Below, piece by piece: positions 22,773-27,122 of a DNA stretch of 64,000 nucleotides. A program made the translations under genes and the position numbers. The notes below the pieces were generated by a model. The model ran no database searches. It was not told the origin of the DNA and was given only the letters and a program-made list of their open reading frames with translations. Where the stretch lies: positions 83,053-147,052 of the forward strand of contig CAMMVF010000002.1 of assembly GCA_946500295.1 (NCBI GenBank). Reading direction: 5' to 3'. Numbering within the stretch: position 1 is the stretch's first letter; each line of letters starts with the position of its first letter. This DNA is from an uncultured Clostridia bacterium. Lineage in GTDB: Bacteria > Bacillota > Clostridia > Oscillospirales > Acutalibacteraceae.

Positions 22773-23048
22773 ATGTCCGAAAAACAGGAAGGCGGTTTTA
22801 TTAAAAACAGCCTTTTTAACAAGGTGGGAAAGCTTCTGCCCTCGTCCGTATATATAGAGATGATGGGAAACTCGGAGCTCACCGTTGAGGGATGCAAAGG
22901 TATTTTGGAATATGACAGCAGCATTATCCGTGTGAGCGTAGGGTCGGCCGCCGTCGCTGTAAAGGGCAGGGGACTGAGCATAAAATGTCTCTCGCTCGGC
23001 TGCGTGGTGATTTCAGGGGTAATTTCCGCTATTGAATACGAAACCTGA
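22773..23048 (+). CDS. yqfC: Sporulation protein YqfC
   Basis: YabP/YqfC-like 91 aa protein directly upstream of yqfD. Confidence 0.85.
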   Translation: MSEKQEGGFIKNSLFNKVGKLLPSSVYIEMMGNSELTVEGCKGILEYDSSIIRVSVGSAAVAVKGRGLSIKCLSLGCVVISGVISAIEYET

Positions 23049-23071
23049 GACTGCAAAAGGGGTGTGAGAGC

Positions 23072-24253
23072 TTGGAAATACTCGACATTATCAGGTTTGT
23101 AAGGGGCTATGTAGAGTTTGAAGCCACAGGCAGCTTTCCCGAGAGACTTATAAATATATCGCTTAAAAAAGGTATTCACGTCTATAAAACTCACGGAGAC
23201 AATGGAACCGTCAGGGGCAGGGTTATTTCATCTCAGTATGAAAGCTTAAAAAAGCTCGGAGACAGGTGCGCCGTCGAGATTACTCCCCTGCACTGCCGCG
23301 GCATACCATTTATATACAGCAACAACAAAAATCGCTGGGGACTGTTGCTCGGAGCTGTACTATTTTTTGGACTCTGTGCTTTTTTATCGTCCTTTGTATG
23401 GGTCGTTGAGGTTGACGGCACTCCAAGCGTAAGCGAATATAAAATCAGGCAGGCGCTTGATGCTCAGGGGTTGTACAGCGGAGCATGGAAGGGAAATCTT
23501 GCACCAGACACTATCGAAAGGGAGACGATGAGGGATTTGGGTTCGTTTGGATGGATGTCGGTAAATATTACTGGAACTGTGGCGAAGGTGTCTGTCAGTG
23601 AAAAGTACAATTCCGACGATGTAAAGCCTCAGGAAACACGACCATGCAACATAAAGGCGGTTAAGGACGGACAGATAGTCAGAATGGATATAAGAAGCGG
23701 CGTCGCCGCAGTTAAAGCAGGCGACGCCGTGACAAAGGGGGAACTGCTTGTAAGCGGAGTACTCAGCGTTGAAAACGACGCAGACTACCTCACTCCCTCC
23801 GTAGGCGAGGTATTCGCCAAAACCGAGCACACCAAGACAGTCTCACAGCCGCTAAAATACACACAGAGGCTTCCAAGCGGAAGGGTAGTTGAGAGGAACT
23901 CCCTGAATTTTCTCGGAATAAACCTGCCTTTAAATCTTACCTACATCCCCTCCGGGGATTACTCCACCGAGTGCGAGTACCTGAATCTGATAGCCTGCGG
24001 CAACACAATGCCGATAGGCATATACAATGAATACTGTACTGAATACACAAACAGGGAAATCAAGCTTAGCGAAGAGCAGGCAAAGGAAAGCTGCCTTGCG
24101 CAGCTTGCGCTCTATGAGGTGTTCAACCTCGGAGAGTGCGAGATAACCGACCGAAAGCTGAAGCATGAAATAAAGGACGGCTGTTATATTCTCACCGCCG
24201 CCTACTCCTGTATTGAGGACATCGGCGAGGTAAGCTATATTGGGATTGAGTAA
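23072..24253 (+). CDS. yqfD: Sporulation protein YqfD
   Basis: YqfD N-terminal region, TM segment, ...SFVWVVEVDGTPSVSEYKIRQAL...; TTG start. Confidence 0.88.
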   Translation: MEILDIIRFVRGYVEFEATGSFPERLINISLKKGIHVYKTHGDNGTVRGRVISSQYESLKKLGDRCAVEITPLHCRGIPFIYSNNKNRWGLLLGAVLFFGLCAFLSSFVWVVEVDGTPSVSEYKIRQALDAQGLYSGAWKGNLAPDTIERETMRDLGSFGWMSVNITGTVAKVSVSEKYNSDDVKPQETRPCNIKAVKDGQIVRMDIRSGVAAVKAGDAVTKGELLVSGVLSVENDADYLTPSVGEVFAKTEHTKTVSQPLKYTQRLPSGRVVERNSLNFLGINLPLNLTYIPSGDYSTECEYLNLIACGNTMPIGIYNEYCTEYTNREIKLSEEQAKESCLAQLALYEVFNLGECEITDRKLKHEIKDGCYILTAAYSCIEDIGEVSYIGIE

Positions 24254-24754: not shown

Positions 24755-24880
24755 CAACCGTGCCTTTGGCACGATTTCACATTCGCCATCGGCGAATATT
24801 TCACCTGCGGCTTGCCCCAGATTTCACAGCGGCGCAAGCCGCTATATCACCGGCATTGCCCCGGCTGCAATGCCGAATTA
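24755..24880 (-). repeat. Mini-hairpin array in opposite orientation (ATTTCAC spacers)
   Basis: CGTGCCtttGGCACG-ATTTCAC-ATTCGCCatcGGCGAAT-ATTTCAC-...-AGCGGCgcaaGCCGCT-ATATCAC-GGCATTGCcccggctGCAATGCC. Confidence 0.7.
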
Positions 24881-25825
24881 TAGCCCCGTTAAGTCAAAGT
24901 CGGGTATTTCTTCTCTCCCCGAGGAGGACAGCTCCTGAGCGTAGCCGTCAAGTCCCAACTCAATAAGCACGTCTAATACCTTTTGATACTCCCTTTTTGT
25001 TATCTTCCTACCCAAAAGTTCATGCCCGACTGCTTTTGCACAGGGAGTGTACTGCGCCATAAGGCTTACAAGCACTCTTGAGCCGAAGCTTTCGCTTATC
25101 TGCTTTAAAACCCCAATCGAATTTTTCGTTGCCGAGGGCAAAACCAGGTGGCGGATGATAACTCCGGATTTTATCATTCCGTCATCGTCAAAGCTCGGAC
25201 TTCCTACCTGATTTAACATCTCCTCAATAGCCGCGACAGCAGAGGCTTTGTAATTCAAAGCTTTGGAATACCGACAAGCAAGTGAATTATCATTATACTT
25301 AAAGTCCGGGAGGTAAACATCGACCAAGCCGTTTAACAGTCTCAGCCCCTCTGCGCTTTCGTACCCCGAGCAGTTGAATATCACGGGAATCTGAGGTTTG
25401 TGCAGAAGCAGAGCCTGCCTTATCAGCGGTATGTACTGAGTACCGCTGACTAAATTAATATTGTGAACTCCGATTTTTTCAAGTTCTTCAAATTTATTTG
25501 CAAGCTCCAGGGGTGAAATATCCTTCCCGAATCCGCCGTGTGAAATCTTATAATTCTGACAAAAAATGCAGTTCAGCACGCAGTGGCTGAAAAACACAGC
25601 TCCGCTGCCACGCTTGCCGCTGATACACGGCTCTTCTCCAAAGTGGGGAGCGATTCTCGCCACCTTCATGGTCGTGCCGGCTTTGCAAAAACCGTTGCCG
25701 CCGTTTTCGTCTCTTCTAACTCCACAGCGCCTTGAGCAGAGGTTACAGCTCTCTATTATCATAATATCCCTCTTTATACTTTCTGCGCTTGCACATCCAC
25801 ATCTCGCCAAACTATAGCGTTGCAA
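24878..25825 (-). CDS. Radical SAM protein, PflA-like family
   Basis: CVLNCIFCQNY is a CxxxCxxC cluster; LCSRRCGVRR N-terminal Cys motif. Confidence 0.88.
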   Translation of the reverse strand: MQRYSLARCGCASAESIKRDIMIIESCNLCSRRCGVRRDENGGNGFCKAGTTMKVARIAPHFGEEPCISGKRGSGAVFFSHCVLNCIFCQNYKISHGGFGKDISPLELANKFEELEKIGVHNINLVSGTQYIPLIRQALLLHKPQIPVIFNCSGYESAEGLRLLNGLVDVYLPDFKYNDNSLACRYSKALNYKASAVAAIEEMLNQVGSPSFDDDGMIKSGVIIRHLVLPSATKNSIGVLKQISESFGSRVLVSLMAQYTPCAKAVGHELLGRKITKREYQKVLDVLIELGLDGYAQELSSSGREEIPDFDLTGL

Positions 25826-25928
25826 GCAATCTAAAGCTGGTTATAATATAATACAAGCTCTAAAGTTTTGCAAGCTCCTCGGTATTGAAAACTCATGGCT
25901 GATATAGTATAATTATATATAAAATCAC

Positions 25929-27017
25929 ATGAATTTTGGTGATCGTATGAGCAACCCTTTTATAAAAACCTCCGATTCCGGTCACGAGTACATAGACCGC
26001 TCCGCTTCGATAAACAGAATGACAATAAAGGATCTGCCGCTTTACGGCGTGGACAACGAGGTGCAGGGCAAGAGCGTTTCACAAATATTCAGCACCGGCA
26101 TAATAGCGGCTGATATACGTCAAAATTCGGAAAAGCTAAGACTGAACTGCTCTGACTTGAGCGACGGCGAGGTAATATCCGGGATGATGAAAGCCCTTGC
26201 AGACGGAAACGAGGAAGCCCTGCGCCTCTCAGTAAAATACGGCAGGCGGCTGGGGCTTATTCTGTTGAGCTTAAAAACCGGGCTGAAAGCCAACAGAGCT
26301 GCAAGACCCGATTGGAGCGACGAGTGCTGGTATTACTGGGGACGGCTTAAAAACATTATTCTGGTCGGCGGACTCACCAGCGGAATCCTCGGTTCTATTT
26401 TAAAATCGGAAGCTCTTTGGGTTTTTGAACAAGCGGGCATAGAGCCATATAACTTTGTAATGTTCGACAATGCAAGCTACATTGGCGTTATGGGCTGCGC
26501 CTCAGCGTTAAAAGAACGGGACGGCAGCTTTTTGGTGTTTGACTTCGGTCAGACCAGCCTCAAGCGCAGCGTAATAAAAAAGCGCAGCGGGGAAATAATT
26601 GAGACCAGGGCGCTCAAAAGCCTGCCGTCCAAATTCATGTCAACGCAGTTTCAAAGCAAGGACGAGGAAAGGGATACTGCAATGCAGCTTTCTTCCTACC
26701 TCGTAAAGCGCATATTTGATACCGTAAATGAAATACCCGATGATATAAATCCGGAGATTATAATCAGCATTGCAAATTATGTTTGCGACGGTGTTCTCCT
26801 CCACCCCAGCGGCGGCTATTCAAAGCTCAGCCTCATCTGCCCAAATTACGCCGAATACCTCGCAAACGAGCTTTCGGGGCTGCTTAGGCGGACAATAACC
26901 GTAAGTCTGATTCACGACGCTACAGCGGCTGCGCTTTATTTTGCCGACTACACCGACTGCGCCTGCATAACCCTGGGTACTGCCTTCGGCATCGGCTTTC
27001 CCGAAACCAGGATATAA
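25929..27017 (+). CDS. ROK-family-like ASKHA protein with apparently permuted motif order
   Basis: ROK C-terminal-half motifs (ALADGNEEALRLSVKYGRRLGLILLSL...IILVGGLTSG...YIGVMGCASAL) precede N-terminal-half motifs (FLVFDFGQTSLK...LIHDATAAALYF...ITLGTAFGIGF). Confidence 0.75.
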   Translation: MNFGDRMSNPFIKTSDSGHEYIDRSASINRMTIKDLPLYGVDNEVQGKSVSQIFSTGIIAADIRQNSEKLRLNCSDLSDGEVISGMMKALADGNEEALRLSVKYGRRLGLILLSLKTGLKANRAARPDWSDECWYYWGRLKNIILVGGLTSGILGSILKSEALWVFEQAGIEPYNFVMFDNASYIGVMGCASALKERDGSFLVFDFGQTSLKRSVIKKRSGEIIETRALKSLPSKFMSTQFQSKDEERDTAMQLSSYLVKRIFDTVNEIPDDINPEIIISIANYVCDGVLLHPSGGYSKLSLICPNYAEYLANELSGLLRRTITVSLIHDATAAALYFADYTDCACITLGTAFGIGFPETRI

Positions 27018-27032: not shown

Positions 27033-27122
27033 AAAAAAAGCTTAAAAACAGTTGAAAAACCCGATTAGCAGGAGTAAAATATAGCTTGTAAAATTTAAGT
27101 TTATAGATTGGGGATATCAAAG

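Follow-up and report, generated by a model that had tools for sequence, protein, structure and literature searches.

Within the window, the 64,000-nucleotide stretch of DNA from an uncultured Clostridia bacterium analysed here, positions 25929-27017 of the forward strand form a single open frame, which carries every motif listed in a preliminary description of the locus. That description placed the start at the in-frame ATG at 25929, but the ATG downstream at 25947 is the likelier start because the homologues begin MxNPF, and residues are numbered from it below. A promoter-like site with strong, near-consensus -35 and -10 elements lies directly upstream (Table 1). The gene is situated between a radical SAM gene (24878-25825, - strand) and pduL, an arrangement restricted to close relatives, and pduL is preceded by a separate promoter-like site (27052-27080). 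A sporulation-type pair, YabP-YqfD (22773-24253, + strand), is also found upstream.

Table 1. Features of the putative permuted kinase gene (window coordinates; residues counted from ATG 25947)
Feature	Position	Strand	Remarks
Sigma-70-type promoter-like site, TTGAAA-17-TATAAT, 11/12	25885..25913	+	Consensus match alone
Permuted ROK-like kinase CDS	25947..27017	+	356 aa; probable start ATG 25947; homologues begin MxNPF
N-terminal half, residues 1-190, corresponding to the ROK C-terminal lobe	25947..26516	+	Fold and profile
S-[ILV]-N-R, residues 21-24, at the place of E-x-G-H in ROK kinases	26007..26018	+	Rotated profile alignment
Family-specific insert NR.AR.DW...CW.YW, residues 116-131, before the adenosine strand	26292..26339	+	Gap in ROK alignments
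Adenosine-type motif LVGGLTSGILG, residues 138-149	26358..26393	+	Aligned to ROK hGGG
C-terminal half, residues 191-356, corresponding to the ROK N-terminal lobe plus phosphate-2 hairpin	26517..27014	+	hhalign
Phosphate-1 motif DFGQTSLK	26541..26564	+	D199, G201 and K206 invariant (40/40)
HDATA, residues 323-327	26913..26927	+	Invariant D324 at the catalytic Asp position of ROK NDANAA
Phosphate-2 motif LGTAFGIGF, residues 343-351	26973..26999	+	Followed by 5 residues up to the new C-terminal end

The N-terminal half comprises the strand that follows phosphate-2, the position of the ExGH motif and zinc loop, helices, the adenosine motif and a GAA-type helix. A search of 200 genomes of the same family group gave full-length homologues in 10 genomes besides that of the window. 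In a species-representative collection, homologues lie on 39 contigs, of which three have a partial or broken copy. The members from this collection belong almost without exception to Ruminococcus/Oscillospiraceae-type gut and rumen genomes, with Clostridium bornimense in addition. Members at a greater distance (26-34% identity) come from a second family of the order and from other parts of the class. Beyond the window's own genome, none turned up among 399 genomes sampled across the phylum, nor in the viral contigs and plasmids searched. In Clostridium sp. SIG253 (L051:5001-5634) the gene is split over two frames, through decay of this copy or through a fault in the assembly.

The family was aligned in 40 rows with 26-58% identity. 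The order GGL, DFGQT, HD[GAS]TA, GTxxGxGF is kept in all 40; since these rows derive from many independent assemblies, the permuted order is not due to chance or assembly error. Residues N23 (within S-[ILV]-N-R), P31, W128, G141, G142, L143, G149, D199, G201, K206, S274-A276, Y291, K293, L294, Y301, H323, D324, A327, G344, G350 and F351 are invariant. The phosphate-1, phosphate-2 and adenosine motifs of the ASKHA fold are thus all present (D199, G344, G350, G141 and G142, 40/40 each), and within the 16-residue insert R120, W123 and W128 are invariant or nearly so.

In its native order the window protein has no sequence match in Pfam, NCBIfam or the PDB (phmmer/hmmsearch), and the PDB also lacks a match to a profile built from the first 11 members. 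The Pfam ROK score was no higher for rotated single sequences, and even after rotation the PF00480 cut-off (22.9 bits) is not reached, the best E value being 0.02-0.05, in one member. Alignment-level profiles were therefore required. A profile from 3 ROK sequences proved too thin, and a fuller ROK set was gathered from related genomes. The comparisons covered this set, a mixed set of Glk and ROK-like proteins assembled from PF02685 glucokinase hits, FGGY, and BadF (6 reference rows).

Against the pure ROK set (hhalign), the C-terminal half aligns with the N-terminal half of ROK (template 6-147, E = 1.2e-6) with a score of 49.9, compared with 14.6 ± 2.6 (maximum 23.7) for column-shuffled ROK profiles. 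The N-terminal half aligns best with the C-terminal half of ROK (template 184-316, P = 0.025), finishing with GCA on GAA, with a score of 22.0 against 14.4 ± 2.1 in the shuffles (maximum 20.8 of 150). With the mixed Glk/ROK-like set, the N-terminal half scores 34.7 (E = 3e-4, onto 234-329; null 14.2 ± 2.7, maximum 25.2 of 100) and the C-terminal half 57.7 (E = 7.7e-8, onto 20-159). When the halves are swapped, a single end-to-end alignment of 282 columns is obtained with a score of 74.8 (E = 1.5e-9), whereas rotation with a shuffled N-terminal half yields 57.9 ± 0.35 (maximum 58.5 in 60 trials). The swap back to canonical order is thus worth about 17 score units that do not come from chance. 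By the separate halves and the rotated profiles, with their shuffle controls, both lobes are remote homologues of the ROK/glucokinase lobes.

The AlphaFold2 model (37 sequences; pLDDT 93.3, pTM 0.89) likewise has its strands and helices in permuted rather than canonical order. The predicted elements are strands 6-8 and 14-16, helices 44-133, strand 136-140, helix 146-163, strand 169-172 and helix 176-186; then strands 193-200, 204-213 and 216-227, helix 238-262, strand 267-275 and helix 301-313; and finally strand 318-323, helix 324-330 and strands 338-343 and 347-350. The order of these elements and the pTM fit a two-lobed ASKHA architecture in the predicted model. Read from residue 193, the modelled chain forms an RNase-H-like lobe (bbb-a-b-a-b-a) and then two strands that open a second lobe, the remainder of which is residues 1-190. 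Therefore, the new ends are predicted to fall just past the phosphate-2 hairpin, in the turn between it and the ExGH/zinc region.

In a full-length Foldseek search the top 50 matches are all of ASKHA type, eukaryotic hexokinases first, with TM (query length) of 0.33 or less; such low values (about 0.3) are expected, because a sequential method aligns just one block of a permuted chain. The N-terminal half folded alone (pLDDT 91.5) retrieves ROK kinases, ROK repressors and related sugar kinases from the PDB at ranks 1-14. The best is a putative sugar kinase, 3r8e (TM 0.58, rmsd 3.7, 191 columns), and the others include Mlc-type and Lmo0178 ROK repressors, ManNAc/GlcNAc kinases, MurK and E. coli glucokinase. 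The E values are weak (0.04-0.5, best 0.038) and only the ranking is striking; for the modelled half, it leaves no candidate fold other than the ROK type. The permuted motif order, the circular permutation and the ROK-type nature of the N-terminal half, as put forward in the preliminary description, are thereby borne out by alignment, profile and predicted structure, and it is very likely that the gene encodes a permutation of a ROK/glucokinase-type chain.

Membership in the ROK family, which was also proposed, holds for the homology of both lobes and fails by formal measures. With ROK sugar kinases (PF00480; 3R8E, the Mlc homologue 1Z05 and the GNE ManNAc kinase 2YHW) the family has both lobes in common, as well as the succession of elements inside either half, including the phosphate-1 DxGxT, a catalytic Asp before phosphate-2, the hGG(G/L) adenosine motif and the final GxxGxA helix. 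In contrast, the canonical linear order (phosphate-1, ND, GTG, GGG, GAA) is replaced by the permuted one in all 40 rows, HD stands for ND, a 16-residue NR..R.DW..W.YW insert is present, and scores stay below the PF00480 cut-off. The ROK signature, ExGH and the CxCGxxGC zinc motif, the last already reported missing in the preliminary description, each occur in 0 of 40 rows; the local ROK set has them in 15, 21 and 17 of 23 sequences, respectively. Because of the score, order, signature, ExGH and zinc motif, the name 'circularly permuted ROK-like protein' is used here.

The Glk (PF02685)/ROK-like set provides the best rotated profile match, yet with 15% identity over the aligned columns, and these glucokinases have the canonical chain order, unlike the permuted family. 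Glk, too, is not known to carry the zinc motif. Eukaryotic hexokinases, the best full-length sequential fold matches, have in common the catalytic Asp before phosphate-2, but they are at least 440 residues long against about 350 for the permuted family, show no sequence match to it and are not permuted.

Taken together, the gene probably encodes a circularly permuted sugar kinase of the ROK/glucokinase (ASKHA) type with an altered substrate pocket. The ends of a canonical chain would have been joined and the chain re-opened in the turn between the phosphate-2 hairpin (GTxxGxGF) and the strand leading toward the ExGH/zinc region, most likely once, via tandem duplication and loss. A rotated-profile search of 199 genomes of the order detected only the permuted family, in two pieces, and one weak partial match (E = 0.004, 42 positions); no un-permuted cousin was found there, and no ancestor identified. 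The protein would refold as a usual two-lobed ATP-binding kinase, in which one lobe, the C-terminal half, carries phosphate-1 D199 as well as D324 as the catalytic base, while the two chain ends together form the other lobe, with phosphate-2 and the adenosine motif. Mg-ATP may be held between the lobes by the D199/phosphate-1 loop, the GTxxGxGF turn and the GGL adenosine motif.

In ROK kinases the Asp of NDANAA activates the sugar hydroxyl, and E-x-G-H contacts the sugar. D324 may act as the corresponding base, and the phosphate would most likely be passed to a sugar or sugar-like hydroxyl. An active kinase is likely, and a sugar is the somewhat favoured acceptor. The pocket would differ from that of glucose or GlcNAc ROK kinases, with HD for ND, S-x-N-R for E-x-G-H and the zinc loop gone. 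Since ExGH is changed to S-x-N-R, the zinc loop lost and a conserved insert placed before the adenosine strand, the acceptor is likely recognised differently. The unusual substrate suggested earlier from the lack of the zinc motif appears plausible, because ExGH is replaced as well.

The loss of the ROK substrate residues (ExGH) also makes a non-catalytic or differently acting protein possible. A permuted ROK-like fold serving as a sugar-sensing or regulatory pseudokinase, as in ROK repressors, would accommodate the replacement of ExGH, the zinc loop and NDANAA together, the canonical ROK glucokinase-like gene already present in the genome, and the differing gene contexts among loci. However, the 40 members keep D199, D324 and the phosphate-2 glycines with few exceptions or none, and no DNA-binding domain is attached, so that a pseudokinase is the less likely reading. 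Even less probable is a reading in which the permuted chain belongs to the hexokinase, BadF/BcrA or FGGY branch of the ASKHA superfamily. The full-length Foldseek ranking of hexokinases could be taken in its favour, as could a short N-terminal match to BadF (BcrAD/BadF; 6 reference rows; 47 columns, P = 0.0014; no match for the C-terminal half) and the resemblance of HD-T-A to the HDTAS motif carried by some FGGY kinases. These 47 columns, however, compare with 282 columns at 1.5e-9 for ROK/Glk, the fold search of the N-terminal half ranks ROK first, and the FGGY profile matches neither half (P = 0.15-0.28), on which account an FGGY origin, prompted by HDTA, was rejected.

The neighbouring pduL phosphotransacylase raises the question of an acyl or other kinase acting as its partner. 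For the window and five close relatives, the adjacency noted in the preliminary description is real; it is restricted to this genus-level clade, and pduL has a promoter-like site of its own. The adjacency therefore looks incidental, and a partnership is very improbable. The least probable alternative, a non-permuted ASKHA protein with an unrelated domain fused before a ROK-like N-terminal lobe, could appeal to the pure ROK set, against which only the C-terminal half scores clearly, but the fold search and ROK/Glk profile both identify the N-terminal half as the ROK C-terminal lobe, shuffles do not reproduce the rotation gain, and the C-terminus ends right after phosphate-2, leaving no second lobe without the N-terminal half.

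For the permuted kinase-like gene, neighbourhoods vary by clade, and the clade of the window has no alpha-glucan neighbour. In one clade, glgB, and glgC where the contig is long enough, lie downstream on the same strand; in another, the gene is directly upstream of a pullulanase-type GH13 on the same strand (type I with CBM26 and dockerin in the tested copies). Each context corresponds to a single clade on the tree, and they therefore count as two events, not eighteen. At L027 the gene follows two sugar-type ABC permeases. The window's genome has one canonical ROK gene and many GH13 hits, which indicates a starch-using organism that also has an ordinary glucokinase candidate. The neighbours in other clades suggest use of glucose or malto-oligosaccharide, and a role in alpha-glucan metabolism is possible, though rather doubtful.

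Several other genes recur near the kinase gene. A protein of 240-400 aa is encoded immediately 3' of it at 14 loci, usually before glgB (L018:6640-7368, L025:6183-7352, L033 and 11 others); the one copy tested matches nothing in Pfam or NCBIfam. An ABC-2 type transporter (ATPase and two permeases, one tested being PF06182) is directly 5' at about 10 loci (upstream flank of L018, L023, L036, L041, L042, L045 and L047). A radical SAM gene is nearby at 14 loci, including L023, L030, L036, L038, L041, L042, L045, L047 and L048. In C. bornimense the radical SAM gene is a true AmmeMemoRadiSam gene adjoining an AMMECR1-MEMO fusion; a general linkage of this kind was not adopted, as the window copy has no NCBIfam hit, the tested rumen copy is below the TIGR04337 cut-off, and local synteny fits. 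In the most distant class-level member (L058:846-1511), the kinase gene overlaps a putative SAM-dependent methyltransferase gene by 8 bases (by eye), suggesting a two-gene operon.

The ASKHA fold, found in actin, Hsp70 and sugar kinases, is old, and its chain order is, to our knowledge, taken as invariable in profile libraries. The family has been left unannotated because linear profiles see just half of it. The open-access literature searched yielded no description of a ROK kinase, hexokinase or other ASKHA kinase with a permuted chain. Circular permutation is mentioned merely as a general rule for the kinase fold groups in PMC1079889, and is not mentioned in a 2025 review of glucose kinases (PMC12696579).

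It is conceivable, if somewhat doubtful in its entirety, that a ROK/hexokinase-type ASKHA kinase has here for the first time been found circularly permuted in nature, with the rearranged order fixed throughout a protein family spread in Clostridia, and that a new substrate pocket gives it a sugar specificity so far undescribed and a part in alpha-glucan use by starch-degrading gut relatives of Ruminococcus. A natural break at the phosphate-2 hairpin region within one lobe would test the dependence of domain closure on chain connectivity, and with the substrate identified, about 40 hypothetical genes of rumen and gut bacteria could be named.
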